Positions 12,566-46,758 of a stretch of 64,000 bases of DNA are shown here, piece by piece; the first letter of the stretch is position 1; every line of letters starts with the position of its first letter. Origin of the DNA: Isoetes taiwanensis. Lineage: Eukaryota > Streptophyta > Lycopodiopsida > Isoetales > Isoetaceae. A model generated the notes under the pieces. It did not search any database. It saw nothing but the letters and a program-made list of their open reading frames with translations, and was not told where the DNA came from. The stretch is taken from assembly GCA_021234155.1 (NCBI GenBank), contig JAJEKV010000002.1, positions 4,847,795 to 4,911,794 on the forward strand, given 5' to 3'. The position numbers and the translations under genes were made by a program.

Positions 12566-15500
12566 AATGCCACGGTTCTATTGCGACAGCAATAGAACCG
12601 ACATTCCTTGGATGGGGACGTCCCTTTGTCACTCCTTCTATTTATTCAGCCTCTCTTCATTGTTCTATCATCGGCATTCTCTTGAGCTAGATTTCTCCTT
12701 CTTCTCTATCCTATCAGTTTTCCTCACCATTCTGCTAATTTGTTCTATCGTATCTTATCCTACTTCTTCTTCCCTTACCCTTCTTCTAGTTTCTTTGGGT
12801 GATGCCCTACCAAATCTTAACCTTGTTCTTCATCCCTTACCCTTTGGGGTTTTTGTCTCTGGGTGTTTCCTTCCGGCTCCTTGTGTCTTAGCGCCATCAG
12901 AACTCTAGCCAGACCGATTGAGTCGAATCACTGGAAAGGAAATTATTTGGGATGTCTTGGTTGGGCGCCACCGTTCACGGTGTTATTGATGCTCGCCCGA
13001 TTACCCGAAGTTGTTTGCAAGAGTGTCGGCATGGCTTTCAACTGGAGCGATTTTTCGGATAAATCTTGTGAACGTTTTTTTTCTTACGTATTTTTCTTTC
13101 CTTAGCCTTGTTTCATGTTTGGTCCGAAGTTTTTCGTGAAAACGGGAATCGCGTGCTTTTTCCCATGATTTGTGTTCAGGTTATATGCTCACGAGGCCAA
13201 AACCCTGATTGCTTGGTTGTTTGCAGTTCAAGTGCATTCTTGGCGATTTAGGTAGCTCGGATAATTTGGATCGGTGCCGCATTGAGTTCTTATTTGGTCG
13301 GATTGCGTTACATTGGGAAAGCATTCCCGCTTTAGGCTTCTTGTTTATTTCTTGCTCAAGTTTCACTATTTACCTTGTGCCCAATCAGTCTAATAAAATT
13401 GCACCTCACATAATCCGACATGATCCACAATCTTCCTCCCGGGTATGCCTTCTATCGTTCTTTGTATTTTGATTCCGAGCTCTTCTCCACTAGATACAAT
13501 CTGCTCTAGTTGGAAGGGTTTATTGGATTGGATTCGGTGCTCCCCCTTTTTTTTTCGATGTACTTCTTTGTTTATTTTAGAATTTCATTTTGGGTTGTGG
13601 TGGTAAATGCTGTTTTTTGTCTCGAATGCTTTCCTTTTTGTTGCTCTTTCTCACCTCTCGCCGTTGAGTTTCTCCGTGGAGCTAAAGCCCGGGCTGCCGT
13701 GACCTCACCTGCCGGATCTTTGGCGTGGCCGCTCCTCTTCGCGTTCAGATTCTGCCGTGATGGACACTTCTTGCTTTGCCTCGGGGTACCGGGTTTTGCG
13801 ATCACTGGTTCAAATCATATTATTTCTTCTCGTGTCTTGCATCTTCTCGGGTCTTGCATGGATGTTCTTTATGTTTAAGAAGCTCTTGTTCACATGTGTT
13901 GATCTTGTGGATATAGAACATTTGCTTCCTCCGCGCGGTTTTTTGAACCCATCTTTGATTTTCTCTAGATCTTTTTTGGCATGATGTATCCACCTTACGT
14001 TTGTTGCCACATATGGTTATCCTCGGATCGGGGCTGTTGCACTTGGTATGTATGCACACTCACCGGGTTTGTTTTTGGGTTTTAGATCTACAAAGCTTAG
14101 AGATGGTTTCAAGATGGCGCTTCCTTGTATAAACTACCGATCTTGGGGCTCTCTCTCTCTCTCTCTAATCGCTTTGCGGTGGTCGATATCCTCTTCCTCG
14201 CTATATTCAGCAGACTTTATCTTTTATTCTCGAGGAGGCTAATTGTTGTCTGTGGTCATAGGTTCTCGAGGTTCGTGGCCCTCATGCATTCATTTTTAAC
14301 GTGGCTTCCCAAATATAGGATGATTGTTAGAAAAATTTTCTTGTCCAAGGTATTTTGGCTTATTGGTGGAGATGTCGAAGTTTGGGTCTATGTCGCTTAT
14401 GGTTTGGGTTCAAGGCCCTCCACTTCATTGTTGCGCTTTAGCTATATTTTATCCTCACATTTTATTATTCTATTGCATGCATGTTGTTGCTCTAGTCATT
14501 TAGGGTTTCCCAAGGCACTTCCTCATCAAATGACCTCTAATAAAGCTTTCGTAGTGCCCTTCATATCATTTTTGTGCATATATCTCTTTTGTGCTTTATA
14601 CATCTTTTTACTCCATCTATTAAATGCATGGTGGCTCTAGTCAGTTTTCCAAAAGCACTCACTCACGTTATGTAATTTTTTGTGCATATCATGTTCGTGT
14701 GCATTATTTAGTCTCTCGATTAAATGCAGGTTTGCTATAGTCAATGCTCAAATTGGGTTCTTCACGGCACTCCCTCTTCATGACTTTTTAAAAGTTTTAA
14801 ATCTATTATACTCCCCTTGGTATTCTCCTACTCTTACCGACCTTGTTTGTTTTTGATAGTTGATGTGATTAGATTGGTCTTGGAGGTTCTATGCCCCTAT
14901 GGTTGCACATTCTATCCTCTCCCCCGTTTGACCCTTAAGATACATTTGTTGGTTCTGGTGTATCTTGGAATTCGATTTTCGAGTTATGACCCTTGTTCTT
15001 GTCTTGTGCCATTGCATCTTTGCGGCTCCAGTTTTTTTTTGTTTGTCGTAATCCATATGGTGCACATGCTTAAATCATTCTTGGTCCCTTGATTTACTTG
15101 ATTCGAGTGCTCTATCTAGCTTGATGGCCAGGCTTGATATATCGTCTTTCTATTTCTCCAACATGTAAATTCATATTTTGTCAGTCTCATATGTGTGCTT
15201 CCATTTTCATTTGGCCATTTCTTTCAAGAGTTTGTGCAGTTAGTTGAGGGCAGGTCAACAACGTGCATGGAAATGTTTATACGTCATTTTAGGTTGCATT
15301 GCACATGTTTATTTGGGGTTTGCTTCTCTATGCCATCATTGTTTGCTCTATTTTTCTGTATATCAGGCTCTACGTGTATTTGAGGATGATTTTCATGTTA
15401 AATATTATCATCTCGTCTATTCTTGATATTCTACGGAGTTTCACGGTATTTTTTGGTCTTCGATATTCTACGCAGTGTGTTTCATGTATATTTTGGTCTT

Positions 15501-18197
15501 ATGCATTTGGTAGATAACGCGTGTATTGCATGATTGTTCGTTGTTCCTTAGGTTTTTCTTTCATGTGCCTGTTGTTCCTTAGGTTTTTTCTTACGTGCCT
15601 ATATGGTTTTATCCGATGCATTCTTTTCTTTTCTTTGATATGTGCGTTAGCTCCATTTATACCCTTTGTTCTTGTTGTTTCACATGGCGTCTTTTGCATC
15701 CCATTACTATGCTTAGTCCTTTAGGCCACTTATCTTCTCTTCTCTCGATTACCCCAATTTTGCTACTTGATGTCCTTATTCTCATTTGTTTCTCTTTCTG
15801 TAAACTTGTTGTTAGATTGGTCCATCTGCTTGCCATTCGCTTCATTGTCTCGGTTTTTTTTGTTAGCCCCATTTCCTCCGCCTATTTTTCTTAGTTTCCC
15901 CGGTGCTTTGTGCCTTTAAGTCTGTTGTTTCATTTTTTTGTGAGAGTTTTCGCTTGTGGGTGATTGTCACTTAGGTACTCTTTCTTGTTTGTGTTACTCC
16001 TTCTTCTATATCTCCTCGCATTTCTTTGTTTTCCACATTCATGCATTAGCTTCCCATTCCCCATTTTCATCTTGACGAAAGCTACCTCACGGGTATTTTT
16101 ATGCTCTTTTTGCACTTCTTGTTATTTTTGTGTTTCTTGGCTTTATTCGGATTCATTAGAGTTATTCTCATTGTTGCCTCTATCTAACATTTCTCCTTGT
16201 ACCATTGGTCTTTTCATCCCGCCACCAGTTCCTTTTTTACCCACTATGATTTGGCTACATGTGCATTGTTTTTTCCAATTTTTCCTTTTGTTTTTTGACT
16301 TTACGTTGCAAGTTCTCTCAGTTTTGGCCACCGGGTTGCTCCATTTATTGTGTAGTTTATTCCATTCGTCTTTATCTGTCATTTCATCCTCCTTTGTCGG
16401 GGTTCATCCTTTTCAGTTCCTTCAAGCTTCGTTGTCTCCTTATTTGTATTCATTTTCCTTGTCCATGATTTCTTTTAACTCTTTGGCTGTGTATTTTGTT
16501 TCGTGGTTTTGTTTGTTTTCAACCCTACAATTCATTTTCCATCTCCCACTGCATTGTTCCATTTTGTTCGTTTTATGCATTTCGGTGTTTTGATACTCTA
16601 GCGCAGTTCCCTTCCTGTCTTTCACTCCATTGTTCCATTTGTTCATTTTTATGCGTTGCATTGTTTCGATGCTCTAGCACTTGTTACTGGCCCCATCTGT
16701 CTCACTAGTTATCTTATTCTATTTACCTTTGTTATCTCATTACTCCTTTGCACTTCGTTATTCTGGGATTTTTGGTACTTTTTTCTTGCTTCTCTTTCTT
16801 CATTCTCCCTTTTGCTCTATGTTCCCTATCTACCCCTTATCTGTGCATCAGCTCCTTACTCCTTTAGTTGCATCAGTTTCTCATTCTGGTTTCGTTGTCT
16901 TCTTACTCCTTTTTTACTTTTGCTAGGTAGGTTAGTTCGGTTTTATAGTATCTTCTAGTATTTACCGGTATATTAGTCATTTGAAATGTTTACCCCGTAA
17001 GTTCCTTTCTCCCTCATCTTTGCATTGTTCCATTGTGTCCTTCATTTTATGTTCCGTTTCCATCTTTCTCTGTATTGTTCCACGATGTCTTTTATTTTTT
17101 CCATTGTTCGGATTCCATCTTTACTTGCTCATTTGCTTTCTTCATTGCACCATTGTCTCTTTTTCTCGTTACCCCCTTTTTTGCTCCATTCTTCTTAGTC
17201 TCCTCTTCCTCCCATTGACTCGTTTGCCTTGCTTGCTCTTTTTGCCTTGATGAGCCATCTCCTACATTTGTGAACTCCTTGATTGCCCCTTCTACCTCGT
17301 TTGTCCCAATGTTCTATTATCTTGTTGTCTCATTACCCTTTTTTATCTCTATTACTCCTTTGTCCAAATTTTGCCTTGTTTTGCTTCCAAGAGTGTTCTA
17401 CCATAATCTGTCAACCTTGCTACATGTGGCTTCTCTTGTCCATGACTTTTTTGTATGCTTTTAGACTCCTTGCCTTATTCACGTTTTTTTGCTATACACT
17501 CCTCATTATCTCGGTAGCTCCATTTGATATTTTTTCTCTATTTGGTTGTGTTTGCATTGTTTTCTTAATTTATTTTCTTTAGCTTATTGTTTCGTTATTA
17601 CTATATTAGTCACATTGGTTCCTTCTTTGGTTTCTTTGTCTTCTTGCTCCTTTTCTATTGCTTGTTAGGATAGTTTGCTTTTATAGTATCTTTGTTAGTG
17701 TAGTATTTATTGGTACATTAGTCATTTGGGATCGTTACTTTGATGATGACATCTTGTTCGTGACTCTGTCTGTTGTTGTCTCAAAAGTTCCTTCCCTCAT
17801 CTCTTATTGCACTATTCCATTATCTTCTTCATTCTTATGTTCCCGTTTCCGTCTCTCATAGCCTTCCTCCATCGTATTCTCCTTCATTTTTTATTCATCC
17901 CATTGTTTGCATTCCGCATTATTTTGCTCTTTACGCTTCTTCATTGTTCTTTTGTCTGCGTCTTCTCTTTATCCCCCTTTTCCTCCATTTTTCTTAGTTT
18001 CCTCTTCCTTCGTTTTACTCTGATTGCCGTCAGCCTTATCTATGCATTCGTTTCCAGTGACCTTGTAGACTCGTTTCTCCCTTTCTTTATACTATATTTT
18101 TCTCTTTAGCTTCTCTTCTTTTCAGTTTCCATGCTGAGTAGTTTTTGAGTTTGTTCCTCTTCCAGTATGTGCCTATCATAGGACCCATCCTAGGAAT
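12566..18197. mobile_element. large element A of a head-to-tail pair, pyrimidine-rich
   Basis: It starts with TGCCACGGTTCTATTGC, whose inner part forms a hairpin (GGTTCTATTGC / GCAATAGAACC, 12573-12597). It ends with a roughly 36-bp block (CCAGTATGTGCCTATCATAG and on to CATCCTAG) at 18161-18197. Element B (18198-19145) has the same start and the same end. TAATG at the left and right outer junctions and GAATG at the internal junction could be a 5-bp target duplication. The interior is strongly T+C-rich on + and holds diverged internal repeats (blocks near 16940 and 17672; units near 14474, 14621 and 14724; units near 16550 and 16628). Long hydrophobic + frames (for example 15964-16593) are products of this composition. 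I saw no reverse transcriptase or transposase. Confidence 0.6.
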
Positions 18198-19145
18198 GCC
18201 ACGGTTCTATTGCGACGGCAATAGAACCGGCATTCCTGGATAGGGGACGTCCTTTGTCCTCCTTCTATTTATTGACCTCTCTTCATTGTTCTATCATCGG
18301 CGTTCTCTTGAGCTAGATTTCTCCTTCTTCTCTATCCTATCGGTTCCCTCACCCTCCCTCCCTTGATGGTTTTTTCATTTAATCGTGTTCGTTATTTCCT
18401 TTTCTATATCCTTTGAATTTGCTTTCTTTTTTTCCTCAGCGTGGCTTTGTAGCCTCTGAGGCATACTTATTGGTTTACTCTTTCTCGGCATGGCATGAGT
18501 ATTTTATTTATTCATTCATGTTTTCTCTCAGTGTGGCATTGTCGCCTCTTAGTCAATATTTATTATTCATATTTTCTCTCGGCGTGGCGCTGTTGCCTCC
18601 AAGATCGTATTTATTGTTTTTCTCGTGGCCATTGTAGCCTCGGCGGGCAGCACTAATCGGTTGTTTTTTCCCGTGATGGTCATTCCGCTGGGCCGGTTTC
18701 CCAATTGGTCGGCTGTTGTTTCTTTCTCGGCGTGGCCCTGGAGCCTCCGAGTCTTCTTGCCTATGGCATCTAACTCATTGACGGGTTATTTTTCTTTCAG
18801 CCTTGATTCTGCAGGTTTGTTTACAGTTTTGTGGTTGCCATCGTGCGTGGGGTCGTGCTTCAACTATTCGCTTGGGTTTTCTCAAAAACCTAAGAAGGCG
18901 TGGTTCTTCTTCTCGATGAGGAGCAGTCACCGGGTCTTCTCACCTTTGCATCGACCAAGTGGCGGATAAAACCATCTTTTATGACATATTCTTCAGTATC
19001 ATCATGCTCTCGATGATTGTCTAGTTTCGGAGCCATTAGAGTTCATGTTTTCAAATTTATCGGGATCCATTTGTACTCAATGTTTTACAAAGCTCAATGA
19101 GAACACCACTTCCAGTATGTGCCTATCATAGGACCCATCCTAGTA
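18198..19145. mobile_element. short element B sharing both ends with element A
   Basis: The first 150 bp or so match the start of element A, including the GGTTCTATTGC/GCAATAGAACC hairpin at 18204-18229. The last 36 bp (19110-19145) match its end. The middle differs and contains five or six diverged copies of a TCGGCGTGGCNNTGTNGCCTC unit (near 18437, 18528, 18581, 18622 and 18730). This looks like a non-autonomous relative or an internally replaced derivative placed head-to-tail with A. Confidence 0.6.
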
Positions 19146-20248
19146 ATGATCCTTTCGTCCTGAAGCTTTTTTTCTTTTTCATCTGCAGGAGCCGTTTCTG
19201 AATGACTGAGCCAGGGCGACCTATTCCAGACATAAAAAATTAGCCCATGCCTTAATCCTCAGGATCACATAAGCGTTGGCCTCGGCTTTAAAAAACAGAG
19301 CCTTTTCTCCATAAACTGTATTAACGGCCTGCTCTTCAAAAGATCAACTGGTTTTTGCTTCGAAAGATTAATCAAATTGGGTTCGCCCTCCACTCCGGTC
19401 TTAAGAGCCCTAGATCAGGCATTTGCACACCTTAATCGGCTTCCAGATTGGACAAATAGCACATGCCTCTAGCACGGCCTCAAAGAGAATGCAAAAATGC
19501 AAAGCCTCAGCAAATCGGTTTGTGCCAGAAATCAATTCCCGATTCCAAATCTGGACATTTTGGAATTTTTTTTGTTTATTTTTGGAACCAGAAAGTTGGG
19601 CTAATAATTTTATATGTAAGAAAGATAACTTGTGTTGGCCAATAGGATGCTAAGGCCGAGATCAAAATCTCGACCGTTCATTTCCTGCCAAGATCAAATC
19701 TTGGCCATAATTTGAATGGTTGGATGGGATGCAAGATTTACAAAATTATATTTGAAAAAGAATCTAAAGATTTTAGGAATTCACCCATTCAAATTAGGGG
19801 CAGGCAGAAAAATAACCTTAGGCTATGCATACGATATAATTTACAAGACGATTTTGCGGCGGCGTTGTCGCCGCCATACTTCGAAGGGTTTTTTGAAGTA
19901 GCGGTGTGGGTGAGATGGAGACCAAGTGAACGTGTGCTGTATCTACTTGAGGCTATCCACCGGCCATACTCCCATAACTGTTGTAAACATGGATGAGGTG
20001 CAACCTTACTTATGGTGTTCTCCCTTAGCTGCTATATTATCCTTTCCCTTGGAACAAAATGTACAAATTGGAGAAAATTATAGACGTCTAACATATGCAA
20101 TATGCAATAAGAGTCAACGTAATTTTTGTAACCGTATCATTATACATGACCGCAAGCCAGAGAACAGCCACAATTCCAAATGTCAGACCTAATGCAACTC
20201 TGCAAAGACATTTGACCATGTTTCATTTTTCAAACAAAAAATCGAAGG
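19146..20248. other. stretch without recognised gene; left flank of the TIR element
   Basis: No gene recognised. A GC hairpin, GCGGCGGCGTTGTCGCCGCC, occurs at 19855-19874. Open + frames of 76-94 residues show no motif. Confidence 0.45.
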
Positions 20249-20279
20249 TAACAAGGTTTAAAATGAAACGCACTTATTT
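20249..20279 (+). repeat. left terminal inverted repeat
   Basis: A 31-bp sequence beginning TAACAAGGTTTAAAATGAAA, matched in reverse complement at 32842-32872 with a single G/A difference. Just inside is a further AAGTGCGTTT (20283-20292), which pairs with AAACGCACTT within the TIR to form a small hairpin. TTTGAAAGATT follows and also recurs inverted near the right end. Confidence 0.85.
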
Positions 20280-20616
20280 AAGAAGTGCGTTTGAAAGATT
20301 GCTATATAAAAATTGAAAACTTGAAAAAAACAGACAAAATAGGGAGCAAAATAGATTGTTGAGCAATTAGCATTCGGAATACCTTCAAAAAAGTAACATT
20401 TTTGAAGCCTCCTTATTTTTAAAAGAGGGCAAAAAACTCAGTAAGTACTTATTGTTGAAAATATAAGGAAATATAGTTTGTCTTTTTGTAAGCTTAATAT
20501 AAGTACTAATAAAATCAAACATAGGAAAGACGGAGTGTGTGAAATCATGGAGCAAGAAAGAGTTGTTCTAATTAAGCATTGTTGAAGAGACAAAGCTTTC
20601 AGTTTAAAAATTTTCA

Positions 20617-21653
20617 TCAAAATATATTATAATTCTTAGCACATAGTTTACAATGAAAGTAGTTTATAATTCTGACTGTATAAAATATGGGAGGTGGGGG
20701 AGGTGGCTCTTCCCAGTCCACAGGACTCTCGTACCCCTTAGGATCTGGCTCTCGCAAGGACATAACAGCGGAGACGCCTACCGATTTCAATCCCATCTCT
20801 TGGCAGGGCGGTTTCTCTGGCACAGGCTCCACAGGCTCCAGGTCGACAAACTCTACCTCCTCGTCTTTTCTCCCCGTAATAGGAGGCTGGATTTCTGTGT
20901 AAGTGCCTTTAACATCGCCCGACCGCGTTCTTTGCTCCCGGTTCCTCGTTTTCATCGGGGAAAGGATTCACAAGAGCTTATCCCCGGTCCCGATGAAACT
21001 TATTTTATCTGGGTCTATGTCGGCGGAGACAACATTGCGCCGCTAAGGGCTTAAAATAGTATGGTGCCTGTTCGGAAAAAGCATCCAAAATCCGGTCGCT
21101 GGCTAGAAAACCTGTATTAAGTTACTAATAAGCCCTCGTGGTTTCTGATAATGGGACACCACGATTGCCTTTGTCTCTAATGGGTCCCTTAACTTTTGAA
21201 GACAACGGCCCGTGCGAAAAGCATTGCAGGGAGGGATCTTCTCATTCTGCGTATTGAAATGTGCCATGGTCTTTTTGGCGTCCGCGCTATAAAAACCTAT
21301 ATGGAAATGCTCAAAACAGCTCACTAACCGCGGACCACCACCATGTCCCTTGGCGTTAAGTTTTTAGCACGCCAAACAATCTGGCAATTAAAAATTAGTA
21401 GGAAGAAAACAATAAAAATAAGTCAGCCGATTGGTGTGGCCGGTATAAATTTATACACATTTGCCGCCTTGTCGTATAAATTTATACCACGGTGCCATCT
21501 TTGTATGAATTTATCACGAAGGTTGCCTTGTCAGATAGATTTATACCGCGGTTGCTTTCTGGCCAGTATAAATTTATACCTTAAGGCAACTGTGGTATAA
21601 ATTTATACCGTGGAGTTACAGTAAAAAGAAAAGCAGTGAACGTAAAGCTTACC
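20617..21653 (-). CDS. unidentified element gene, at least three exons
   Basis: Three coding-like blocks lie downstream of the ParB-like gene on the same strand. The first (about 21803-21653) holds LKMLQYLQTGGLSFFIQ and KTVF and ends at a GTAAGC donor. The second (21348-21112) reads GHGGGPRLVSCFEHFHIGFY with SNLIQ at its end, between a CCAAG acceptor and a GTTTTC donor. The third (about 20930-20617) is acidic and proline-rich, with EEVEFVDLEPVEPVPEKPP and a PPPPPP run before the stop at 20617. The phase between blocks 1 and 2 does not fit without a one-base change. The intron between them holds a palindrome array. I do not recognise the family. It could also be a 3' portion of a larger gene; the start codon is not fixed. 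Confidence 0.4.
21442..21609. promoter_or_regulatory. palindrome array 1 (six sites)
   Basis: Sites at about 21442, 21474, 21502 (degenerate), 21532 (degenerate), 21565 and 21594, each a version of the 16-bp palindrome GGTATAAATTTATACC. Starts are 28-33 bp apart, about three helical turns. The array lies in the apparent intron 21349-21652 of the second - strand gene. The regular spacing and degenerate spacers suggest protein-binding sites rather than a simple satellite. Confidence 0.8.
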
Positions 21654-22465
21654 AAACACAGTTTTCGAAGCCGGCGTTACAAACCGCTCCCATAGGTTTA
21701 AGCACCGACATCGTTTGAAGGTCTGAATGAAAAATGATAACCCTCCAGTTTGCAGATATTGTAACATCTTTAGCCCGTCCAAAAAGCACGGACTTGCGTG
21801 CATGAAGGCTTCATCGCCGGCTTATCTTTAATTTTGAAGCCATATGGAATATCTGCTATGCACAAAGTAAAATTTTGCTTGTCTAAAAGTGTCCCCAGCT
21901 TAGTGCAATCACCCTTATGACCCTGTACAAGCAGTCCTAATCAAACATTGCGAATCTTTCATAGCTAGTGTCAAAACTGCTGGGGCCGACTTCTTTTCCC
22001 TGTTCAATGGCCTTAAGTCTCCGCCTTTCCTCTTTGGCCCTACGAACCAGGTTCAAAAAGCTTTGTTGGTAGCCCTTTCCTCTTGTTTCAGAAAGAACGG
22101 TGAGACAAAGGTACAAAGACAAAACATGTTTTGTGCAAAACTTACCGGTAGTTGAAGTTAATTAAGCAGATGCTCCTCGATTGTACTTGTCGTCGTACAA
22201 GTTGGGTAAAAAGCTTGCACTCCTCCCGATCTTCTAAGTTTAGTTGCTTCATTAGTTCGGGATTTGGCAGTGACAATGTCTTTTCTCGATTAAAAAGGAA
22301 AGAGGTTGTAAGGCTAAGTGAGGAATAAAGAACATAGTACAAAAAGGCTTATGTCTTAGCTTCCTTGGCCATTTCATCGAGTAAATTCCTTGGCCACAAC
22401 CTTCTCCGTGAGGCGCATTTAAAATGTCTTTGCTTTTTAGTCCACAGAGCTGAGTCCGTGGTACA

Positions 22466-22480
22466 ATGCTCATGTTTTTT
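22466..22480. repeat. target-site duplication of the LINE, left copy
   Basis: ATGCTCATGTTTTTT is present here and again at 26626-26640, directly flanking the inserted LINE. Confidence 0.9.
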
Positions 22481-22481
22481 T

Positions 22482-25400
22482 TTTTTTTTTTTTTTTTTTT
22501 TTGAAGAACTGTGTCATCAATATATTAAAAGAATGGTAATGTTACAAAGCAAGTGAGGAGGAAGGAGAACGCCTAAAAGAGGCAATGATACCTCGACACT
22601 CCACAACAAACTCACGAAAAAAATCGCAACTCTATTGCTGTACAAAACCGACCATCACCATCTACAACACCCAAGAAGTCCCGCCAAATGGCAAACTTTC
22701 ATCTACTACTCCCGGGAACACCAGAAAGCTTTGAAATAGCTTGTACCGAGTCGAGGAATCGAGAGGTCGCGGCAGTGAATCCCCGAAAGATCCACAACCG
22801 CCCGCTTCCAAATCAGCCACACCAACAAACCAAGCCATGCACGGATGCAAGGTTTGCCGCAAGAGCGCCAAGCACCAGATACACATGAAGCAGCAAGAAT
22901 CGCTAGCTAGTCAATCTCACCAAATGTAGCCCTAACCCAATCCCAGCAAAGCCACGCAAGTGAGGGCATAAACCGCATAATGCTCCACAGCCTCAATGAT
23001 GAAGGCCACGACAAGGGCGAGAGGGCTCACACCCGCCTAAACCGACTCACAAGGGCATTCACCACGACATGGCCCGGTGCACCACCGCCACATAAGCACC
23101 CTAACCTTCGTGGGGAAGTGAGCTCCATGTCCACGCCCAAACCGAAGGCCATCGAGAACCCTGAAGCCGCAAAGACCACTTGCCGAAGGGGGCAAGTGTC
23201 ATGAATAGCCGCACCCAAGAAGAAGACCGCACAGCAAGAAGACACAACATCCTGATGAACCTTCCAAACCCGCACCACCACATCATCCCCGAGGGATATA
23301 GGTATGTGTAGCGGAATACTCCCACCACGTGTTCTCAGATAGCTCCTACATCGCCTCAGCGTAAAGCGAGCTCGAAAAGAACTCCCACGGGCTAGTTGAC
23401 CACCCCAATACCAATCCTCCAAGGTGAGCACAAAGCAGCTTGCTCTCCAACGGGCTCAAGGGTCCGAGCATGCACAAAGGGCAGCCAAGGGCAAGTGCGC
23501 AGGGGGGTAGAGGAACACACAAGAAAGGAGAAGAGTGGTGATAAATCGAGGCATAATCTATTTGGAAGAGCACACGACATGATCCCAAGCCCGCAACACA
23601 CACGTGGAGAAAAGGGGATGCATGTGGGAAAGGCCGAGACTATACAACAAAGGCTCCGTGGCAACTCCACATGCACATGACGGGCTTCCCAAACACCACA
23701 CAATGGCTTAAGAGATCGCAACAACAGGCCAAGACTGTGAGAAGATGCTCCATCCCGCGCAGAATGCTCCAAATAAACTTGGAGACCAACACCTTACTAT
23801 GCTTAAATCCGTAATGGCTAAGCCCCCATCCTCCCGGGCGTGAGACACTTCCACCAAGCCACTTTAACAACCGCCCCTTCATCATCCCCTCCCTTCCACA
23901 CAAAATTTCGAACAATCTTATCCAAAGCCCCGTATCTTACCCGTGAGCTAGCATCGCAGATGTCAGATACACATGAGTGCTACAGTAATCGGGACTTGGC
24001 AATAGTGATCCTACCGCCGGGACAACTTGCTACCCTTCCACCAATTGAGGTGTTTCGCAACCCCCGCAAAATCTCATCCCACACCCTCCATGGAAACATC
24101 CCTCCAAAGGGAATACCCAACAGCTTAGTAACTTATTACCCGGAAGCACCTTCCAAGGGAATAGAGCCAAACAAGGGGAGGCGGAGTCACCGGGCCCATA
24201 ATGCGGAGCACTTACCCCAATTCGTAAGAATGCCCGAGGCCAAGGAGAAAGTATCCAACAAACCCTTCACATTCCGCAAATTCCTCTTCTCGCCACCAAG
24301 AAGAGGAAAGTGTCATCGCTTAAACCGGGTTAATAAATATCGCCATCCCGCATCCGGGGCCCATCCACCATTCCTCCTCCATCGCAGCCTAAAAACACCG
24401 GAGACAAAGGCTTCCGCCACAATCGTGAACAAAAACGGGCCAAAGGGTACCCCCCGACGCACCCCCGCCTTAAGGAGAAAAGGTGGAGGGTTCACCCCGG
24501 CACACCATCGTGAGCCCGTGGCTGACCTATGCCGCTTCATGATCGTTCTCGAAAGCGTGGACCACAGCCCAACGCTAACATCATGGCGCATAAGAACTCC
24601 TAACGGACACTATCGTAAGCTTTGGCAAAGTCAAGCTTAAGATAGGCAATGCCTTGCTCTGTTTTCTCCCGCCCAATAAAGGCCCTCATAAGCTGCGGCA
24701 ACATTAGTCAAAATGTTCCTCCTGTGGACAAACCCAGATCAGACCTTACTAATGGAAGAAGTCAACACCGGCTTCAACTTCACGCCAGGCTTTCGTTGAA
24801 TAATCTTATACATGAGGATAACAAGGAGATAGGCCTCCAATCATTAATAGTAGAAGGTTGTTTAACCTTAGGAATCAAGGAAATGCATGCGGTATTCAAG
24901 ATCCTATCCATTTGAGAAGACCGCAAAGAACTCAAGGTACACCGGTACAATCGACTCACCAGCCCACTCCCAATAAGTCTAAAAAGAACTCCACAGGATG
25001 CCATCCAGCCTGTGACATTTATCCTTGGCCATGCACATACATGCCGCCGCTTAAATCCGCCTCCGAGAGTTCCCCGCCCTCCAAGCTCTCAACCGATGAG
25101 GCGTAATAGATGGTTTAATAGCCCCCAAAACAAGCCCCCCGATCTCCCGCCATAGGGAAGAATGCATTGTGCTAAAAACCCCGAGAAATGGGCATGCACA
25201 TACCTCTTCAAATCAGCGGATCCTCCAAAGTCCAGCCATCAGGCAAAGCAAGGGACGCCATAGATGCCGCGATATCGCCACGCCTAGTTGCTCTGAAGAA
25301 CACCTATTTTAACTTGTGTCCCCCTCCTTCAACAGGTAAGGGTTGTTTTCACACGCGCTCTCCCGTGACTTTAACCTGCTCCAGAGCAACAATACGCCGG

Positions 25401-26625
25401 CAACACTACATTCTCCCTAATGCCATCAAAAGGTCGCGGCCTTTAATCCTCTCCAACTCCCCGATAGAGACCATGCAACTCCCGCCGCCTTTCGCCGCGA
25501 CATGCCGCTTACCAAAGACCTTTGGCAAAACGCTTCACCCCGCCAAGGCCACCATACCGTATATACCCTTCAGAGATGAAAAGGTATCAAGCCACAACCC
25601 CGCACCGGGCCGAGAACCGCAGACGCCAAAAGTCGGGTGTTCAAACGAACACCGCCCTAGAGGGCCGAGAGGCAATCGCGACTCGACCGAACAAAACCCG
25701 AGGGTAATGATCAGAAATGGAGGTAGATGAATGTTACGGGGCAAAGAGGGCACACCATCCAAAGGCACATGGGGAAGCATAACACCGGCCATGCCGAGCA
25801 TACGCCCCTACCGCCAAGCACTAACCGCCTATTACAATAGGTGAAAGACAAGTCCCCTGTGGACCTCAACCAAGGCCAAATCCCCAGAACAAACGAGACC
25901 ATCGATCCTCTCAAACCCATGCACAACCCGGGTTCCAACCAGAGCAATCCTCTACTGGCTTCTACCATATTGAAGTCCCCTAACAACAACCAAGTTTAAC
26001 CAACCCCACCAAGGGCTCAAGAACTTATTCCGAATCGTGGGCCCATAAAGCACCCGGCTGAGAAGGCCGATTAGGGCATAAACATTAACAATCCCCACTC
26101 TTGCCCTCCCTCCAACCACTTAATTATTGCCCACCGACCAAACTCCGTCACGCAGAAAGTAATGCGGACTCGACATCCATCCTCCAAGCAATAAGAGTAC
26201 CCCACACTAGTCCTTAAGAAAGAAGCAATAGAGGCAAACCGCCTATCAACCATATTCATGAGCCTAGACATATCACCCCAGGACACTTATGCTCCTGAAT
26301 GCAAACAATATCAGGACGCAACTGCCGAAGTGCCAAAGAAACACGGGCCCTCTTACTACTAGAGGACCGCACCCCCCGCACATTCCAACTAAGGATCGAC
26401 CTATTCATCCCGGAGGAGAAATGTCCAGCCCCACATGCCTACCCACCAGGCCATCAACCCACTCCACAGAGTCATCATCTAGAGCCAGAGGATTAATCAC
26501 AGCAATATGACCCACGCTCTACGTGAGATTCCACTTCCAACACGTGTTGGAAGTCCCCCAGGCAGCTCCATAGAGTCATGGGCTGCACTAGTCTCTACCT
26601 CCACCCGGGCTGCTCCAGCCACCTC
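22482..26625 (-). mobile_element. L1-clade LINE inserted in an exon of the ParB-like gene
   Basis: A long T run on + (22475-22502) is the poly(A) tail of a - strand element, and 15-bp target-site duplications flank it. ORF2 starts at about 26411 with NRSILSWNVRGVRSSSSKR and PDIVCIQEHK (endonuclease N-terminus). It continues with LLGDFNMVEAS and SGDLSFTYCNRR-like endonuclease motifs (25711-25989 frame, slightly broken). Reverse transcriptase shows ISLIPKVKQPSTINDWRPIS (24780-25004) and GVRRGVPFGPFLFTIVAEA (24313-24591; functional RTs have G-x-R-Q-G-x-PLSP). C-terminal sequence extends to about 22660. ORF1 is missing, so the copy is 5'-truncated just before ORF2. Numerous stops and frameshifts make it inactive. 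Confidence 0.93.
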
Positions 26626-26640
26626 ATGCTCATGTTTTTT
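26626..26640. repeat. target-site duplication of the LINE, right copy
   Basis: ATGCTCATGTTTTTT, identical to 22466-22480. Counting the duplication once keeps the - strand exon open across the insertion point. Confidence 0.9.
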
Positions 26641-26821
26641 TGTTTTCCTTCAATATTTTTTTTTGGTTTCTTTCCGGTGGAGCTAGCTTGTTCTTTAAGC
26701 TCACCATCCTTGAACATGCAAAATATTTTTTCTTGAAGATCCCAAACCTGTTAATGGTCGAAGTCAAATAATTTAGTGTTGAGTAGCATAACTTGAAAGC
26801 CTAACCTTGAAACCAGTGCTC

Positions 26822-26919
26822 GGTATAAATTTATACCGAGCCAAGGCACGGAAAAATTTAAACCGAGCCCAGGCACGGTATAAATTTATACCGAGCCAAG
26901 GCACGGTATAAATTTATAC
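26822..26919. promoter_or_regulatory. palindrome array 2 (four sites)
   Basis: Sites at 26822, 26850 (degenerate), 26878 and 26905, 27-28 bp apart, with the spacer GAGCCAAGGCAC repeated. The array sits inside the ParB-like gene intron 26748-26990. Confidence 0.8.
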
Positions 26920-27966
26920 AGTTTGAGGGCACTGCACAGTTCACTCTACATTAAACATACTACTAAAAGATGATTAAAAGTTTTACTTACTTGACCATCT
27001 CTGAAGGCAAGCTGGAAGTAATTGTTGTACTGCTTTACAGCCATTATAGGCTTCTTATCGAATCGAATCGAGGCAAAGACTCTGCGGACACAAGCTTCTC
27101 GAAGCTCTTGGAGCTTGTTCTTTTGCTTCTTGAAGTCCTCTCCATGCACTTGTTTAAATTCCACGTACTCTCGGTGCATAAAGCAGATCTTGTCTATCAG
27201 GCTCATTTTTAATCTGAAGTCATTGTCGAGATTGTGACTCACAGCAATGACCTTTGCTTCTTCGTCTGTCACCCCACGTAGATATGTGCTTCCACGCTCT
27301 TCCAGACTTCATTACGACTTTCTTCTTTTGAAAGTTCTTTTCTTGCTTTATAACTATGTGTGCCTCCAAGAACATAATAGGTGTAATCTTCGAAATCTGC
27401 CTTTTTGTAGTCTTTTAATTGGTTGCACTGACTTCGGTCTACCATCACAACTAGTGGCGACACATGGGCATGAGGATTCCTTCTCATTCTTTGCTTGAGG
27501 ATAGCCACATATGCCGTCAGACGACTTTCGGACTGAAGCACTCTCACCCCATCTTCATTTTTTGGTGGCCTCTTAATCGTGCTCAGTGTCAATGAAATGG
27601 TTTGCTTGAGGAGTTTGGTCTCATTAACCCTCTTAAAAATAGCACTTGACTTATCTGACGGCCGCACAACAATGTCCCCCCCAGGAGCCCTTTGGAGAGC
27701 TTCTGCTGACTCCTCTATGGTCAAGGCCTTTGTGGTTCTTGACCTTTTTTTGGTGGGAGGCTGTGTACCAATGTTGATCTCTTGCTCTTCCCTCTTGTCA
27801 CCACCGGTTCCTCCTCTTCCTCTTCTTGTTCCGAAACCTCGTCCTTCTCGACATCTTCTTGAGGAAGTGGGTACCAAAGACCATTGACCATTTCCTTTTG
27901 TTCACAAAGTACTGAGGACAAAATGTCCACTATGTCCTGTAATGCAGGGTAAATTAGAAAGATGAC

Positions 27967-27981
27967 GGTATAAATTTATAC
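27967..27981. promoter_or_regulatory. single palindrome site
   Basis: GGTATAAATTTATAC, a single copy in the short intron 27937-28005 of the ParB-like gene. Confidence 0.7.
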
Positions 27982-28606
27982 GTGAAGCCACTAAGAACAA
28001 CTTACATAGCCCTTCTTGTAATTTTCTGCCATGTAATCATGGACGTCTTTAGGTCTGCACATGCTTATACGAAGCATTCTACTGTTCAGAATATAAAAGA
28101 CTTCACCGTTGTCATTTAGGCACTTCATAAAAATCTCATCTTCATTTTCTGTTGCAGTGAGGCTTATCATTTCGCCGGCGGGGTAAATAATCATCTTTGG
28201 TAAACTTTCCCCTCCCTGACTGATTACACAAATAAAGGTACTTCCTCGATGGGTTTGGCGCCTCGTTCCCTCAGTAATGCGTCCATGTCTGGTCTGTGAG
28301 TTCATATGTTTGTGGCTCTGTTGGGTTTGCCTTTGATGATTGGCCTCTCTGTGTGAACTTGATCTTGGGGCTGAAAAGGCGCAAAAAAACCCATTTTTAC
28401 ACCAAAAATACAGTTTTTCTCCACTATTTTGGACACTTTTAACTGTAAGAAAAATGGCTTAAAGGACCTAAAATGCACGCTATTTTAACCCTTTATTTGT
28501 GTCACTTGACCTTAAAACACAACATTATTACTCAACTACTAAGGTTGAGGACATTTTTTTAGACTCTCGACACTTTACGAGAATAGAAACCATAAATGTT
28601 GTCTTC

Positions 28607-28905
28607 TGTATAAATTTATACCGAAATTGTTCTGGAACGGTATAAACTTAGACGCCTCGAGCACGAGCGGTATAAATTTATACCGTTGCAGAACACTCGC
28701 GGTATAAATTTATACGCCTCGAGCACGAGCGGTATAAATTTATACCGATCCAGAACATTAAGAAAGTGTTCTAGAACGGTATAAATTTATACCACTTCGT
28801 GCTCGAGGACCAAGGAATGTTACAGAATAAAGATAAATTTATACCGGCCGTAGCTGGAGGCGATAAATTTATACCGCTCCAAAACAATTCGGTATAAATT
28901 TATAC
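28607..28905. promoter_or_regulatory. palindrome array 3 (nine sites)
   Basis: Sites near 28607, 28639, 28669, 28701, 28731, 28778, 28831, 28861 and 28891; most starts are 30-32 bp apart. Spacers CCTCGAGCACGAG (28654 and 28716) and CGTGCTCGAGG (28798) are inverted relative to each other, so part of the array is a larger inverted structure centred near 28762. It occupies the proposed first intron of the ParB-like gene (28371-28970). Confidence 0.85.
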
Positions 28906-28978
28906 GTATGAGCTTAGACTCAAGCGATTAAAAGAGAAGAGAAACTAGAATAATGCAGTTAGACACTTACGTGGCCAT

Positions 28979-29069
28979 GATCGTATGGATTCGCTTTATA
29001 CATTGAGGAGAAACAAATTGAGGGTATATAAAGCTAGCCATGACCGACTCAGTAGCGATATAGAAAAAA
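28979..29069. promoter_or_regulatory. shared divergent promoter region
   Basis: Only 91 bp separate the two proposed start codons. A TATATAAA element at 29026 (GGTATATAAAGC on +) reads as a TATA-like box in both directions. The window between the starts contains no full copy of the 16-bp palindrome; these lie in the first introns on either side. Start codons are assigned from matching donor sites, not from transcript data. Confidence 0.5.
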
Positions 29070-32000
29070 ATGGAATCGGCCGTGCCGCTTTTAAGTACCT
29101 ACGGTAAGTGCCGTTCAATATATAGCGTTTCCCGCGCGTCTCTCCCATACCTGAAATTCGTGGGTTTCGTTATAAATTTATCGCATTTCTGTTCTATGTT
29201 GCCCTCCCTCTGTATAAATTTATACCATCTTCGTATAAATTTATATCTACCATTTCAAAGTTTCCCTTCTGCAGTATAAATTTATATACCATCTCGGTAT
29301 AAATTTATACCGTCTATCTACGTCATAAATTTCTATGATTAAGGACCTAACTTTCTGAGTATGGCTCGAGAGAAAAGAAGCTCAGAGCCTCCCTCTTACG
29401 TTAGGGCTTCCTCCTCAATGACTTTCACACCTCCTCAATCGACACGAGAAGTAGCCCGCGAAATGCGCCTCCGATATTCAAACCCCCGGCTACGTTGGGT
29501 TTACTCCACCCGACCACCTCGGCTTCCACCACCAGTTCAATTTACTCCACCACACCCCTGCTCCTGACGTCATTTGCCCCCACCAATGCATTTTGCTCCA
29601 CCCGCGGGGCTACAGAGCTCAGATTACCTCCTCCGGTTCATTTTTAACGCGTCTCCCATAGTCCCATCGTAGGCTGCCTCCGGAGGCAAATCGCGCCAAC
29701 TCCATCCATTTCGTTAATTGGTACTACAACAAAGTGGGAGCATTCGGCGCCCGCAACTCACTCGTGTTCTCACGACGCCGGGGAGCTGGTCAATTACGTC
29801 ACCAACCTCGATTATTTTTCCCGGAGAGGGAAAGCACCTCCCCCCAGGACTTGCCCACACCAAACCTCTCAGCATCTACTAGTACACCATTTGTTGCTCC
29901 CGTGTCAGACGAAGAAACACTTCATGTTGATCTCTCAGATGAGGACCTACCAAAGCCACAAGACTCTATGTTCGAATTCAAAGCTCCTGCAAGTAAAAAT
30001 CTTAAGCGAAACTTACACAAGAAAGCATGTACATCCCAAAGAAGAAAGAAACTTATGGACAAGGCTCACTTGAGGGTAACACATACAAAGCACTGTTGTT
30101 CTCAACGTTCTTTGCTTAAGATTGGACTAAAGGAATTGAGGTTGATTCGTGATAGTTACAGTTCAATGACTCTGTTAGACCAAAGGGGCTACTTAGCCTT
30201 CAATATTAGGCCAGATTATGATGAAAGGTTTACTTACATAGCTGGTGGCCACACGATCGTCAAACGACCTTTTGATTCATGCTTTTCAGGCGACTTGACC
30301 GCTGTAAAAAGGCTTGACAAGAATCCGGGCATTAATGACTCCGCCATTAGGGAGGTATATCGAGAATTCATGCCCTTCAATGTGTTTCTTGGATGGAAGG
30401 TTTCTTTAAGGAGTCATGCAGAAACTCCCTAACAACCCTATGTACCACTTGGTGACAACTTCCAACAAACGTGAAGTCTGATAATTATAAGGATATGTGT
30501 GTTGAGGTTGGAGAACGCCATATGCTGCTACTCTTACTTCAGCGTGCTCGGAAAAAGAGTTTTCTCAGCGTATCCATTCCTAGAAAAGCAGGATGTCTTT
30601 TGTGCTACATAGCTCTGAATTAAAGCTGGAGACAAAATGCAAGGACACTTCACACTAAAAAAAGTAAGCTTCCAAAAGCGTGTTCTTGCCTAATTCTACT
30701 TAAAAGTAGGTTCTTTCCTAAACATATTTTTCATTTAGGATGCATTGAAAAGAAACCTGAACAAGCGGAGAGAACAACAATCTTTGGAAAGGGAGAAAAT
30801 TGACAAAACATAGGAAGAAAGCCTTTGGAACAACCACTTTCGGCTACATATCGGTTGTTATTGATGGAATGGACGAGGAAGAAGACCACCCTACCACATT
30901 TTGTCAATGTGCCTAAGGATGCTCTGAAGAAGATTTCATACACGCATGTTGTTGGTGCTATGGTATTTAATGGAAAACTATCTTGCAAGGCATTTTTGAA
31001 CTATCAAACATTCATGCTGATCCAAATCTCACTATCACAATATTGAATAAGCTTCTTTCCAATCTAGAACATATACCTCGGGTTCTATATCTTGACTAGA
31101 CAACACGACAAGACAAAATAAGAATCGGGCATTGTTTGCTTATCGTGCTATGCTAGTTGAGAAACAAATCTTTAAGAAGGTGAAGATTGGTTTTACGCTG
31201 TTGGTCATACACACGATCAAATTGATCGGATGTTGATGAGGTTCTCTAAGCGTCTTGCTCGAAAAAGCTCTCAACCTACCAAAGAATGATTGAGGTTATC
31301 AAGATTCCTACAATCCTCGTCCGGACATCGAAGTTATTAGAAGAAACTTATGATTTCAAGGAATGGATTTACCGGAGAGATCAACTGGGTCGCTATTGAG
31401 CCCTTGAGAAACATTACATTTCAACATCAGATCAAAATTCCACTTGTAGATGGCAAGGCCATCTTACAAGGAAAGAAATATGCCGCGCATCCTTGCGATT
31501 AGCGCGGCGGTGTATTCAATTCATTCGCACCATCCCCAATACTAGTTCTATGCTCTCTGCGAGAATCAAATGCCTCTAAAAAAGCTTGAAAGAAATCACA
31601 AAGAGTAAAAAGGAGGGAAGAGCATTTGACTCAAACAAATCATTGGATTATATTGAGACAAGTATTTGATCATGCTCTAACCACTTTGGGGAGGCGAGAT
31701 GCTTTATGGTGGCCTCAGTTTTTTTCGGCGGCGTGACATGTTGCAAGCTTCATTACAAGGTCGAAGACCGGTTACATTCAAGCGGCCATCTAGGCAAACT
31801 CCTCCCTACAAGTTGAGAATCAAGAGGAACATGTAGAGATAATGGCTAGCTCGGATGAAGATGACAGAGTCATGTACATAATCGCCCCAGATACGGCACA
31901 ACAAGTTGCTCGAAAGTATCAGGTTAGGTCCGAGATTGAGAAAAGGAATGCTCATAAATTTGTCCCGGTGATAATGATGAATCTGGAAAACTATTCTGGC

Positions 32001-32461
32001 TAGCTAAAGTACTGGAGATAACAAGAGAGGATGGAATTCCCACTCAATTAAAAGTGCACTGGATGAGAACAAATGCTGCCAATGCTTTCAGTGGGAGTTA
32101 TACTTTGGAGATGGTAAAAATAGGAGTGGGAAAGAGAGCAAAGTCCAAAGCAAACACTGTTGTCATAGATCTAGCTGAAGTAAAGGTTCTTGCATATGAC
32201 TTTGTTCTGACTGCTGCTAATAAGTTACGTATGGTCACTCAAACTTTAATAAGGTCGGCATGTGGATTAGTCAAACAACCTAGAAAGGTGGCCAAAAAAG
32301 ATGATGAGGATTCACTTGTAGACAGTGAGGAAGAAGATCGTTCGAGTACATCCAGTTTTGAGAGTGAAGCTGAGGATGAAGGCTCAAGTGATCAGGGATT
32401 AAATGAGTCTGAGGATGAGATGCATCCTGATATTGCTGCAAAATGTAAGTTTGTCCGATGA
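29070..32461 (+). pseudogene. DUF7869-like transposase-type gene with chromo/BAH-like C-terminus
   Basis: Exon 1 is 29070-29103 (MESAVPLLSTY, donor GTAAGTG). Exon 2 starts at 29344 and is in frame (MAREKRSSEPPSYV). After a proline-rich, stop-interrupted stretch, 29734-30432 has a cysteine-containing N-terminal region (HTKHCCSQRSLLKIGLKEL, then DQRGYLAFNI). A core follows in shifting frames: IDGMD (30859), PHFVNVPKDALKKISYTHVV, then LDNTTRQNKNRA (31096) and VGHTHDQIDRMLMRFSKRLA (31200), and DFKEWI (31353). This series of conserved acidic residues matches proteins I associate with DUF7869 and suggests an RNase H-like catalytic core. From 31960, GDNDESGKLFWLAKVLEIT and a KVHW segment resemble a chromo/BAH-type module, followed by an acidic tail ending at 32461. 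Multiple frameshifts and stops indicate decay. Confidence 0.65.
29169..29338. promoter_or_regulatory. palindrome array 4 (six sites)
   Basis: Sites near 29169, 29211, 29231, 29273, 29296 and 29323 (some half-sites degenerate), with CATCT in several spacers. The array lies in the proposed first intron (29104-29343) of the DUF7869-like gene, mirroring array 3 on the other side of the promoter. Confidence 0.8.
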
Positions 32462-32841
32462 CTCGAACATGTAAAGAACAGAAAGTGCAGATGATCAGTG
32501 TTTCTCAAAATGTCCTATATTTTTGACAATTTTGTTCATAATTTTGTACAATTTTCACAACCTTGAATATATCACTTCTTTGTCACTCTACTACCCTTGC
32601 TATTTTTTTATTGCCCCTTTTTTGCTACACTTTATATAAGTAACTATTTTTTGTTCTAAATTAGGATGATGAAAATTGCTATTTAAAATTTTTGCATGGA
32701 AGTTATGTTCAATCAACCCCTCAAAAAGGGTACCTAAATTACCTAAATTGTCACACCTGTCACACAAAAACCTTAAAAATGGACTTTTTAAGGGAATTTT
32801 AGGGAATCTTTCAAAGATTCCTTTTGAAGTGCGTTTGGAGC

Positions 32842-32872
32842 AAATAAGTGCGTTTCATTTTAAACTTTGTTA
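32842..32872 (-). repeat. right terminal inverted repeat
   Basis: Reverse complement of 20249-20279 with one mismatch. A second AAGTGCGTTT lies just inside (32827-32836) in the same orientation as the one in this TIR. Sequence following the element is GGTGGCAAAT. Confidence 0.85.
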
Positions 32873-33072
32873 GGTGGCAAATAGAAGCTTATGCTGCTAA
32901 TACAACTTAAACAAGAAACTCGACAATTTTCCCAGGAGAAGAATCCTTGCCAAGTGCCATTTCTAGGAAAAGCTCAAAGGCAATCATGGCCATTCTGCAT
33001 AACATGCATGTACAACCAACTGATCTGATTTTTACAACCAACTGACCTGACAAGTTTCAAATCTATCAAGTT

Positions 33073-46200: not shown

Positions 46201-46582
46201 TTGGGTTCAGACTCCGAGCGACCACAAGTTCCAAGCCAATGATGAGATCCTCGCCAAGATGAAGCTCCCAAGATTCTTTGCCTTAATCCTATAGGAGATG
46301 GATCAACCTACCAAGGATAGCATTGTCCGAAAACAACTTCACAGTACATTAGAATGCATTAGTTTCTAGTGCCCCTGAAATTGAGGATACAAAATCCAAG
46401 CTGTCATGGCACAAGTGAGTTCTAATATCCACCTTGGACTTGGTTATCAAGTACCTTCTCTTTTACTCTGCACAGATACTGGCATCAGTCAACAATATTG
46501 TCTATGGCTCCATCAAAGAGGCGCAACCATAATTGGGCAGAATTTGTCTTCTGAAGAATGGAAGGAGGGTTGAGCAGGCCAT
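43244..46582. other. stretch without recognised intact gene
   Basis: 43735-44060 has an LTR- or MITE-like look (CACTATAAATACGTATAT near its start) and contains an 18-bp tandem duplication AGCCAGCCCCGCCATTGT at 43923-43958. A GC hairpin with 12-bp arms GGAACGCCGCAT/ATGCGGCGTTCC lies at 44148-44181. The 97-residue + frame at 45317-45610 contains one hydrophobic segment but no family signature. No gene is supported. Confidence 0.4.
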
Positions 46583-46758
46583 AAGGACATACTAAAAAAC
46601 AAAACAAAACAGACTTACTCTGGCCAGCTACTTCAAAATCATCAATTGGATTCTGGCTCAAAGATGGATTAAGGACATACTAAAAAGCAAAACAAAACAG
46701 ACTTACTCTGGCCAGCTACTTCAAAATCATCAATTGGATTCTGGCTCAAAGATGGATT
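46583..46758. repeat. 88-bp tandem duplication
   Basis: Two units, 46583-46670 and 46671-46758, differ at one base (an A/G near position 17). Each starts AAGGACATACTAAAAA and ends CAAAGATGGATT. The near-identity suggests a recent event. Confidence 0.95.

Follow-up and report, generated by a model that had tools for sequence, protein, structure and literature searches.

What kind of mobile DNA would carry, between one pair of inverted repeats, a gene for a protein of a domain family without assigned function, a DNA methyltransferase of bacterial type and a perfect palindrome repeated in arrays? This question is raised by positions 20,249 to 32,872 of a 64,000-nt stretch of the genome of Isoetes taiwanensis (GenBank assembly GCA_021234155.1, contig JAJEKV010000002.1, positions 4,847,795 to 4,911,794), referred to here as the window. 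A preliminary description, made from the letters of the window, took this segment to be a decayed member of a large DNA transposon-like family, bounded by 31-bp terminal inverted repeats (TIRs) with one mismatch, holding two divergent multi-exon genes (ParB-like and DUF7869-like), a third gene and palindrome arrays, and knew of no described plant superfamily with this gene set. The segment proves to be a DNA transposon whose inverted repeats measure 30 nt and whose target duplication measures 4 bp. Our overall reading of the sequence, to which we give a probability of about two in three, is that it is a cut-and-paste transposon that we could assign to no described superfamily, in which a DUF7869 protein would act as transposase, the palindromes would be recognised by the element itself, and the methyltransferase would place a self mark.

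Element boundaries, target duplications and empty sites

The repeats at 20249-20279 and 32842-32872 pair at 30 of 31 bases (97%) and lie 12.6 kb apart. Exact inverted 18-mer pairs separated by 1-25 kb number 28 in the window, against none in 20 first-order simulations, and all 28 stem from the element ends or from the palindromes. The pairing proposed in the preliminary description is thus present, with the repeat proper one base shorter: the outermost letter differs among copies (T, G, C or A), which sets the repeat length at 30 nt and assigns the outer T/A to the target duplication. An outer TA as the target duplication was discarded after comparing the ends with those of other copies, which gave the 4-bp AGGT instead. 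The element begins with AACAAGG, finishes with CTTTGTT and is flanked by AGGT on both sides, as follows.

20246..20249, no strand: left copy of the target-site duplication, AGGT (copy comparison; single AGGT-type target in empty sites)
20250..20279, plus strand: left terminal inverted repeat, AACAAGGTTTAAAATGAAACGCACTTATTT (pairing and other copies)
32842..32871, minus strand: right terminal inverted repeat (pairing and other copies)
32872..32875, no strand: right copy of the target-site duplication, AGGT (copy comparison)

Fifteen two-ended cases were inspected, one of which (C1025) has a truncated left end and falls outside the 14 that could be scored. Ten of these carry exact 4-bp duplications (AGGT twice, CTTG, ACCC, ATTT, TACT, CTCT, TATT, CATC and TATC), two agree at three of four bases (C442 and C1106) and two show no match (L015 and L022). 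The joined flanks of the window copy gave 16 non-self genomic matches, showing that the insertion sits in repeated sequence. Nine of the 16 extend 40 nt or more past the junction in both directions, three of them on one contig, and all six that were fetched are continuous, with a single AGGT (five) or AGGC (one); one of the empty sites (L073) has a 1-nt gap near the junction. Both checks put forward in the preliminary description, for target-site duplications and for empty sites, therefore came out in its favor. The hallmarks of a TIR DNA transposon are all present, namely inverted repeats, a target duplication of constant length and empty sites, and the empty sites at paralogous places settle the matter of a transposon with a 4-bp duplication.

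Copies across the genome

Searches of the 1.658-Gb genome scored the best candidates only; the counts are lower bounds, and co-occurrence covers part of the candidates. The left end gave 1233 first-look candidates, and among the best 40, with identities of 80 to 100%, 33 (window included) begin within 3 nt of the repeat edge. The right end gave 1391 candidates, the best 40 of which all stop at the repeat edge at 95-100% identity. The existence of a large family sharing both ends is thereby upheld. Of the 20 copies fetched, which rank directly behind the window in the left-end search, 13 have no right end within the 10 kb fetched. Three end pairs with exact duplications lie 24.6 kb (C943:1521293-1545910), 32.5 kb (C1049:11450934-11483439) and 34.0 kb (C963:7866696-7900655) apart, and these very long copies (24.6-34.0 kb) probably arose through nested insertions. 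In a separate copy, L020 (C1060), a second family end was seen at oriented position 4215, apparently the family nested into itself.

The window copy is itself interrupted by a nested long interspersed nuclear element (LINE)-like insertion, which runs antisense in the element and splits the left gene.

22482..26626, minus strand: nested LINE-like insertion of about 4.1 kb, with a poly-T end and a 15-nt direct repeat, TGCTCATGTTTTTTT, whose two copies start at 22467 and 26627

With its direct repeats the insert occupies 22467-26641; one tested piece of it gave no match in Pfam. Because it lies inside the element, the element is the older of the two. Subtracting it leaves about 8.5 kb, and the copies L009, L019 and L021 measure 8.6 kb. 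The genes of the window copy are broken by frameshifts and stops, in agreement with its description as a decayed member.

A scored DUF7869 match lies within 4 kb inward of the right end, on the same strand, at 12 of the 40 scored right ends, a count that leaves out the end at C1028:11797461, whose DUF7869 match lies on the outer side. Of 105 left-gene matches, 27 have a scored partner (an end or DUF7869) when only the predicted divergent arrangement is counted. The unpaired matches are unjudged rather than negative, because only the best candidates were scored, and some of the left-gene and DUF7869 genes among them may occur independently. Where scored matches overlap, both genes keep the predicted divergent order. 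The proposed tie of the genes to each other and to the TIRs thus holds for the overlapping matches but is incomplete, given the 27 of 105 and a sister DUF7869 subfamily in which the terminal repeats were not found.

The right gene encodes a DUF7869 protein

29361..32461, plus strand: right gene, DUF7869 protein, core at about 30830-31499 (PF25273 match; frameshifts and stops in the window; probable transposase)

On read-through, the right gene of the window matches PF25273 at an expectation value (E) of 3.3e-28 (99 bits, cut-off 26), and the intact exon of copy L019 does so at E=1.9e-52 (178 bits, cut-off 26), so the DUF7869-like label was correct. A locus of the sister subfamily, L061, has an open frame of 951 amino acids matching at E=4.1e-51. 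The genome holds 9903 DUF7869 candidates, and of the best 150, which were scored, all 150 lie over the cut-off; matches were found in 0 of 14 control genomes. Acidic residues are invariant in the motifs VVIDGMD, LQLDN and GHTHDQID among seven aligned open pieces, and their order is compatible with an RNase H-like DDE/D enzyme. The DUF7869 protein is probably a transposase of the DDE/D type, and is the likely agent of cutting and joining the element ends.

The left gene and a methyltransferase as its probable C-terminal part

20620..22160, minus strand: beta-class N6/N4 DNA methyltransferase, read as the C-terminal part of the left gene (DIPY as motif IV, followed by QKP and the motif I region; motif I broken in the window)
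26981..27944, minus strand: left-gene exon labelled ParB-like in the preliminary description, YYVLGGTHSYKARKEL region (frameshifted in the window; open version of 395 amino acids in copy L014)
27991..28305, minus strand: N-terminal exon of the left gene (distant homologue at the same place in the sister subfamily)

The divergent order of the genes and their broken state were described correctly. We read the supposed third gene as that portion of the left gene which lies beyond the LINE-like insert and forms its C-terminal half, and we infer a single transcript joining the left-gene exons. This part gives only a weak match from the broken window copy (E=0.0014); the intact exon of copy L013 matches N6_N4_Mtase at E=3.3e-15, over the curated cut-off. 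Its nearest solved structures are MboIIA, CcrM and RsrI (E about 1e-7 to 1e-6), and the NCBIfam model of CcrM is matched at E=2.6e-11, yet with 43 bits against a model cut-off of 830. Motif IV, D[I/M]PY, is retained in 15 of 16 aligned copies and is followed by motif I, an order colinear with that of a CcrM-like enzyme from bacteria. Motif IV ahead of motif I, together with the N6_N4_Mtase match, identifies the protein as a beta-class N6/N4 enzyme.

A phage search with the read-through window methyltransferase returned no match at E<=1. The intact exon matched 820 phage and 2931 plasmid records at E<=0.01, all below 60% identity, and those among the listed matches are generic methyltransferases; annotation of a ParB fusion is absent from all three of the phage and plasmid methyltransferase regions read. 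Bacterial genomes yielded one distant CcrM-like relative, whose frame shows no N-terminal extension by eye.

The ParB-like exon is open in several copies (best 105 of 3606 candidates scored). Its designation must be regarded as unproven. No ParBc match was found by Pfam in the pieces scanned, and the frame of copy L014 gave two sub-threshold PHROG matches, at E=0.029 and 0.17, to ParB-like partition proteins that were not reproduced on the L058 or L055 frames. The AlphaFold model of the exon has a confidence (predicted local distance difference test, pLDDT) of 31. The N-terminal exon of copy L055, compared with six loci, showed similarity to the sister loci L064 (E=3e-6, 19% identity) and L068 (E=1.8e-4, 31%).

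Palindromes of the element and of its sister subfamily

The window contains 16 exact and two one-mismatch copies of the palindrome GTATAAATTTATAC, where 0.02 would be expected, and all 18 lie inside the element, between the divergent genes and in predicted introns, bearing out the arrays of the preliminary description.

21443..21608, no strand: palindrome array 1, GTATAAATTTATAC, four exact and two degenerate, in a predicted methyltransferase intron
26823..26919, no strand: palindrome array 2, three exact and one degenerate, in a predicted left-gene intron
27968..27981, no strand: single palindrome in a predicted left-gene intron
28608..28905, no strand: palindrome array 3, between the divergent genes
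29170..29310, no strand: palindrome array 4, directly upstream of the DUF7869 gene

No perfect 14-nt palindrome occurs three times in any of 65 overlapping 1.5-kb control windows of the 64-kb stretch. At least five exact GTATAAATTTATAC are present in 14 of the 20 fetched copies, at largely matching distances from the left end and in varying numbers. Genome-wide, GTATAAATTTATAC pairs 10-40 nt apart number 5171, and the control with the reversed pattern gives 0. A statistical analysis of helical phase in the window array, whose spacings are not independent, resolved no period, and phasing is judged below from simple spacing counts of the second palindrome. As a separate observation, other GTATAAATTTATAC arrays at G000 C2:481793, C16:164948 and C17:129383 have different, GAGAGCTC-like spacers, which suggests further families using the same palindrome.

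It might be a host transcription factor that binds such arrays, or they might serve solely as DNA or RNA hairpins, in either case carried along by the element. Their position flanking divergent promoters and in predicted introns would suit this explanation. Upstream DNA was read for four further DUF7869 genes (the sister locus, L066, L067 and L068). The sister locus (C1018:2446500-2459900) is without GTATAAATTTATAC and instead has eight copies of a different palindrome, GTATTCCGGAATAC, within two mismatches, four of them exact; L068 has three exact GTATTCCGGAATAC upstream of DUF7869. At these two loci the GTATTCCGGAATAC arrays occupy the same placement as GTATAAATTTATAC does in the window element, upstream of DUF7869, and both loci have a distantly similar divergent first left-gene exon across the gap. 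L067 (C1045:28689700-28691200) has three exact and four near copies of a further palindrome, CTATGCGCGCATAG, 1.4-2.9 kb upstream of the DUF7869 match and linked to it by position only. L066, which is near a closer relative, has one exact GTATAAATTTATAC and one GTATGAATTCATAC, plus degenerate ones.

Pairs of GTATTCCGGAATAC, sought at spacings of 29-59, number 1098 genome-wide against 0 for the control. Among 50 listed pairs, some in arrays that are near-identical copies, the spacing is 42 bp in 33, 41 in 12, 40 in one, 31-32 in three and 49 in one. The spacer sequences vary while the spacing stays near 42 bp, which agrees with sites placed four helical turns apart, or three in some pairs, and speaks against the host-factor explanation. 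So do the different palindromes, in the same placement, of the two DUF7869 subfamilies, because a host factor is not expected to switch its site by subfamily. We therefore consider a host factor or passive hairpins rather unlikely, and read the palindromes as candidate lineage-specific recognition sites of the transposon's own.

Proposed working of the element

In the working that we propose, the DUF7869 protein would cut at the element ends with a 4-bp stagger and join them. An element-encoded protein, either DUF7869 or the product of the left gene, would bind the phased palindromes of its own subfamily; assembled on the arrays in the shared promoter region, it would control the two divergent promoters, and in the bound state it could sense copy number and recognise the DNA of its own family. 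The methyltransferase would modify element DNA, perhaps at or near the palindromes, as a self mark. The change of palindrome with subfamily supports the idea of an element protein reading its own sites. Marking of element DNA is only suggested, by the presence of the gene. A methyltransferase combined with spaced, branch-specific palindromes suggests that the family labels or recognises its own DNA.

A number of observations weigh against this scheme. The AlphaFold model of the DUF7869 core has a pLDDT of 38, with strands and helices in a compatible order at low confidence, and Foldseek found nothing for it at E<=0.001. Sub-threshold profile matches fall to a metallo-phosphoesterase (PHROG 1649, E=0.035), over the GHTHDQID stretch, and to TerL_ATPase (E=0.16-0.27 in DUF7869 pieces). 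With a poor model and no Foldseek match, the case for an RNase H fold comes from the order of the motifs and from low-confidence secondary structure, and since the weak profiles also point elsewhere, we infer the transposase role rather than assign it. The similarity of the first exons between subfamilies is 19-31% and was found only with the L055 query; with the window's own N-terminal exon, the best E among six loci was 0.58. Motif IV of the methyltransferase reads DIPY where DPPY is usual. The 6.5 kb searched in the one sister locus read contained neither a methyltransferase nor a ParB-like exon, so the methyltransferase may not be general. The spacing of GTATAAATTTATAC ranges over 27-53 bp among 50 listed pairs (36 of 50 at 28-33), and the spacing counts for both palindromes include related copies.

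The TerL_ATPase matches could also be taken, along with the several genes, the bacterial-type methyltransferase and the paired ends up to 34 kb apart, as signs that the element is no simple transposon but an endogenous virus or a Polinton-like element. Against this stand the 4-bp duplications, the absence of any capsid or polymerase Pfam match in the pieces scanned (a set outside the 24-34 kb interiors), and viral contigs that hold neither confirmed relatives of either gene nor palindrome pairs. Polinton/Maverick elements have a family-B polymerase, a retroviral-type integrase and 6-bp duplications; with duplications of 4 bp and no polymerase or integrase Pfam match in the pieces scanned, the element does not belong to them. 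A viral origin is most improbable.

Classification

Known superfamilies of cut-and-paste elements are distinguished in part by their target duplications, which are TA in Tc1/mariner, 9 bp in Mutator, TTAA in piggyBac/Kolobok and 8 bp in KDZ. PMC12730594 gives 3 bp for Harbinger and 8 bp for hAT and Zisupton (KDZ). The 4-bp duplications of varied sequence do not fit PIF/Harbinger, Tc1/mariner, hAT, Mutator, piggyBac/Kolobok and KDZ. A divergent branch of a known plant superfamily with captured genes (CACTA/CMC including Lanisha, PIF/Harbinger, Mutator or hAT) would also have TIRs and short target duplications, and the CMCT group makes duplications of 2-5 bp according to PMC12730594. That paper ascribes to CMC/CMCT, including Lanisha, a recently proposed lineage similar to EnSpm, C(2)C and H(3-4)H motifs between the second D and the last E, along with CA..TG ends "in most cases". 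The ends found here are AACAAGG, and these motifs, as described there, are absent by eye, which speaks against CMC/CMCT and led us to reject Lanisha. In the pieces scanned, Pfam gave no transposase besides DUF7869. We consider a branch of a known superfamily quite unlikely.

The element is a TIR transposon, probably of an undescribed superfamily. As the preliminary description had supposed, no described superfamily with this gene set was found in the open literature searched, a body that excludes Repbase and most subscription journals. Among titles and the opening parts of abstracts in the open literature, no match was found for transposons with ParB, methyltransferase or similar genes, and DUF7869 is named in no paper of the open literature searched. 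A fuller version, in which this superfamily would practise epigenetic self-recognition through a lineage palindrome phased along the DNA helix, a co-evolving reader and the mark of a bacterial-type adenine or N4-cytosine methyltransferase, is tentative, and on the sequence evidence we consider it less likely than not. If true, such a transposon would tell its own DNA from that of the host and of sister families.

Other features of the window

Outside the element, the window contains the following.

821-1153: AAA_12 helicase piece
12566-18353: a pair of direct repeats (each about 160 nt, 93% identity) enclosing some 5.5 kb of T-rich, markedly skewed sequence, possibly another element
38094-40375, minus strand: alpha-L-fucosidase gene pieces (PF01120, F5/8 type C)
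46582-46758: 88-nt tandem duplication, two copies, 98% matches
49372-49839: GHMP kinase-like piece

Implications and comparison with known systems

In conclusion, these data locate a DNA methyltransferase of bacterial type within a eukaryotic transposon that is abundant. They also provide naturally diverged transposon lineages whose DNA-binding protein and palindromic site seem to have changed in step, and from such a series the genome could reveal the specificity code. The right gene clearly belongs to DUF7869 (PF25273), listed as a "domain of unknown function" in Pfam. Tied in the element to TIRs, target duplications and empty sites, the family gains a genetic setting in which a transposase role can be tested.

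Several known systems share parts of this arrangement. The Bacillus cereus protein Bce_0392, described in PMC5512222, fuses a methylase to a ParB domain for which DNA nicking is reported. Fusions of this type would show the same pairing of ParB and adenine methylase if the ParB-like reading of the left gene is right; unlike in these prokaryotic proteins, the ParB domain of the element is unproven. The TET/JBP-carrying DNA transposons of fungi (PMC12730594) likewise carry an enzyme that alters DNA methylation, but with the opposite chemistry (removal there, addition here) and with different transposases. The methyltransferase shares with the beta-class enzymes CcrM, RsrI and MboIIA the order of motif IV before motif I and the QKP motif, and differs from them in being apparently split by introns, in residing in a eukaryotic transposon and in its DIPY motif IV. 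In En/Spm, the element protein TNPA binds many 12-bp motifs in its own element and is linked to the control of promoter and methylation. The TNPA motifs are subterminal and are not perfect palindromes, whereas the palindromes of the Isoetes element are internal and change between subfamilies.

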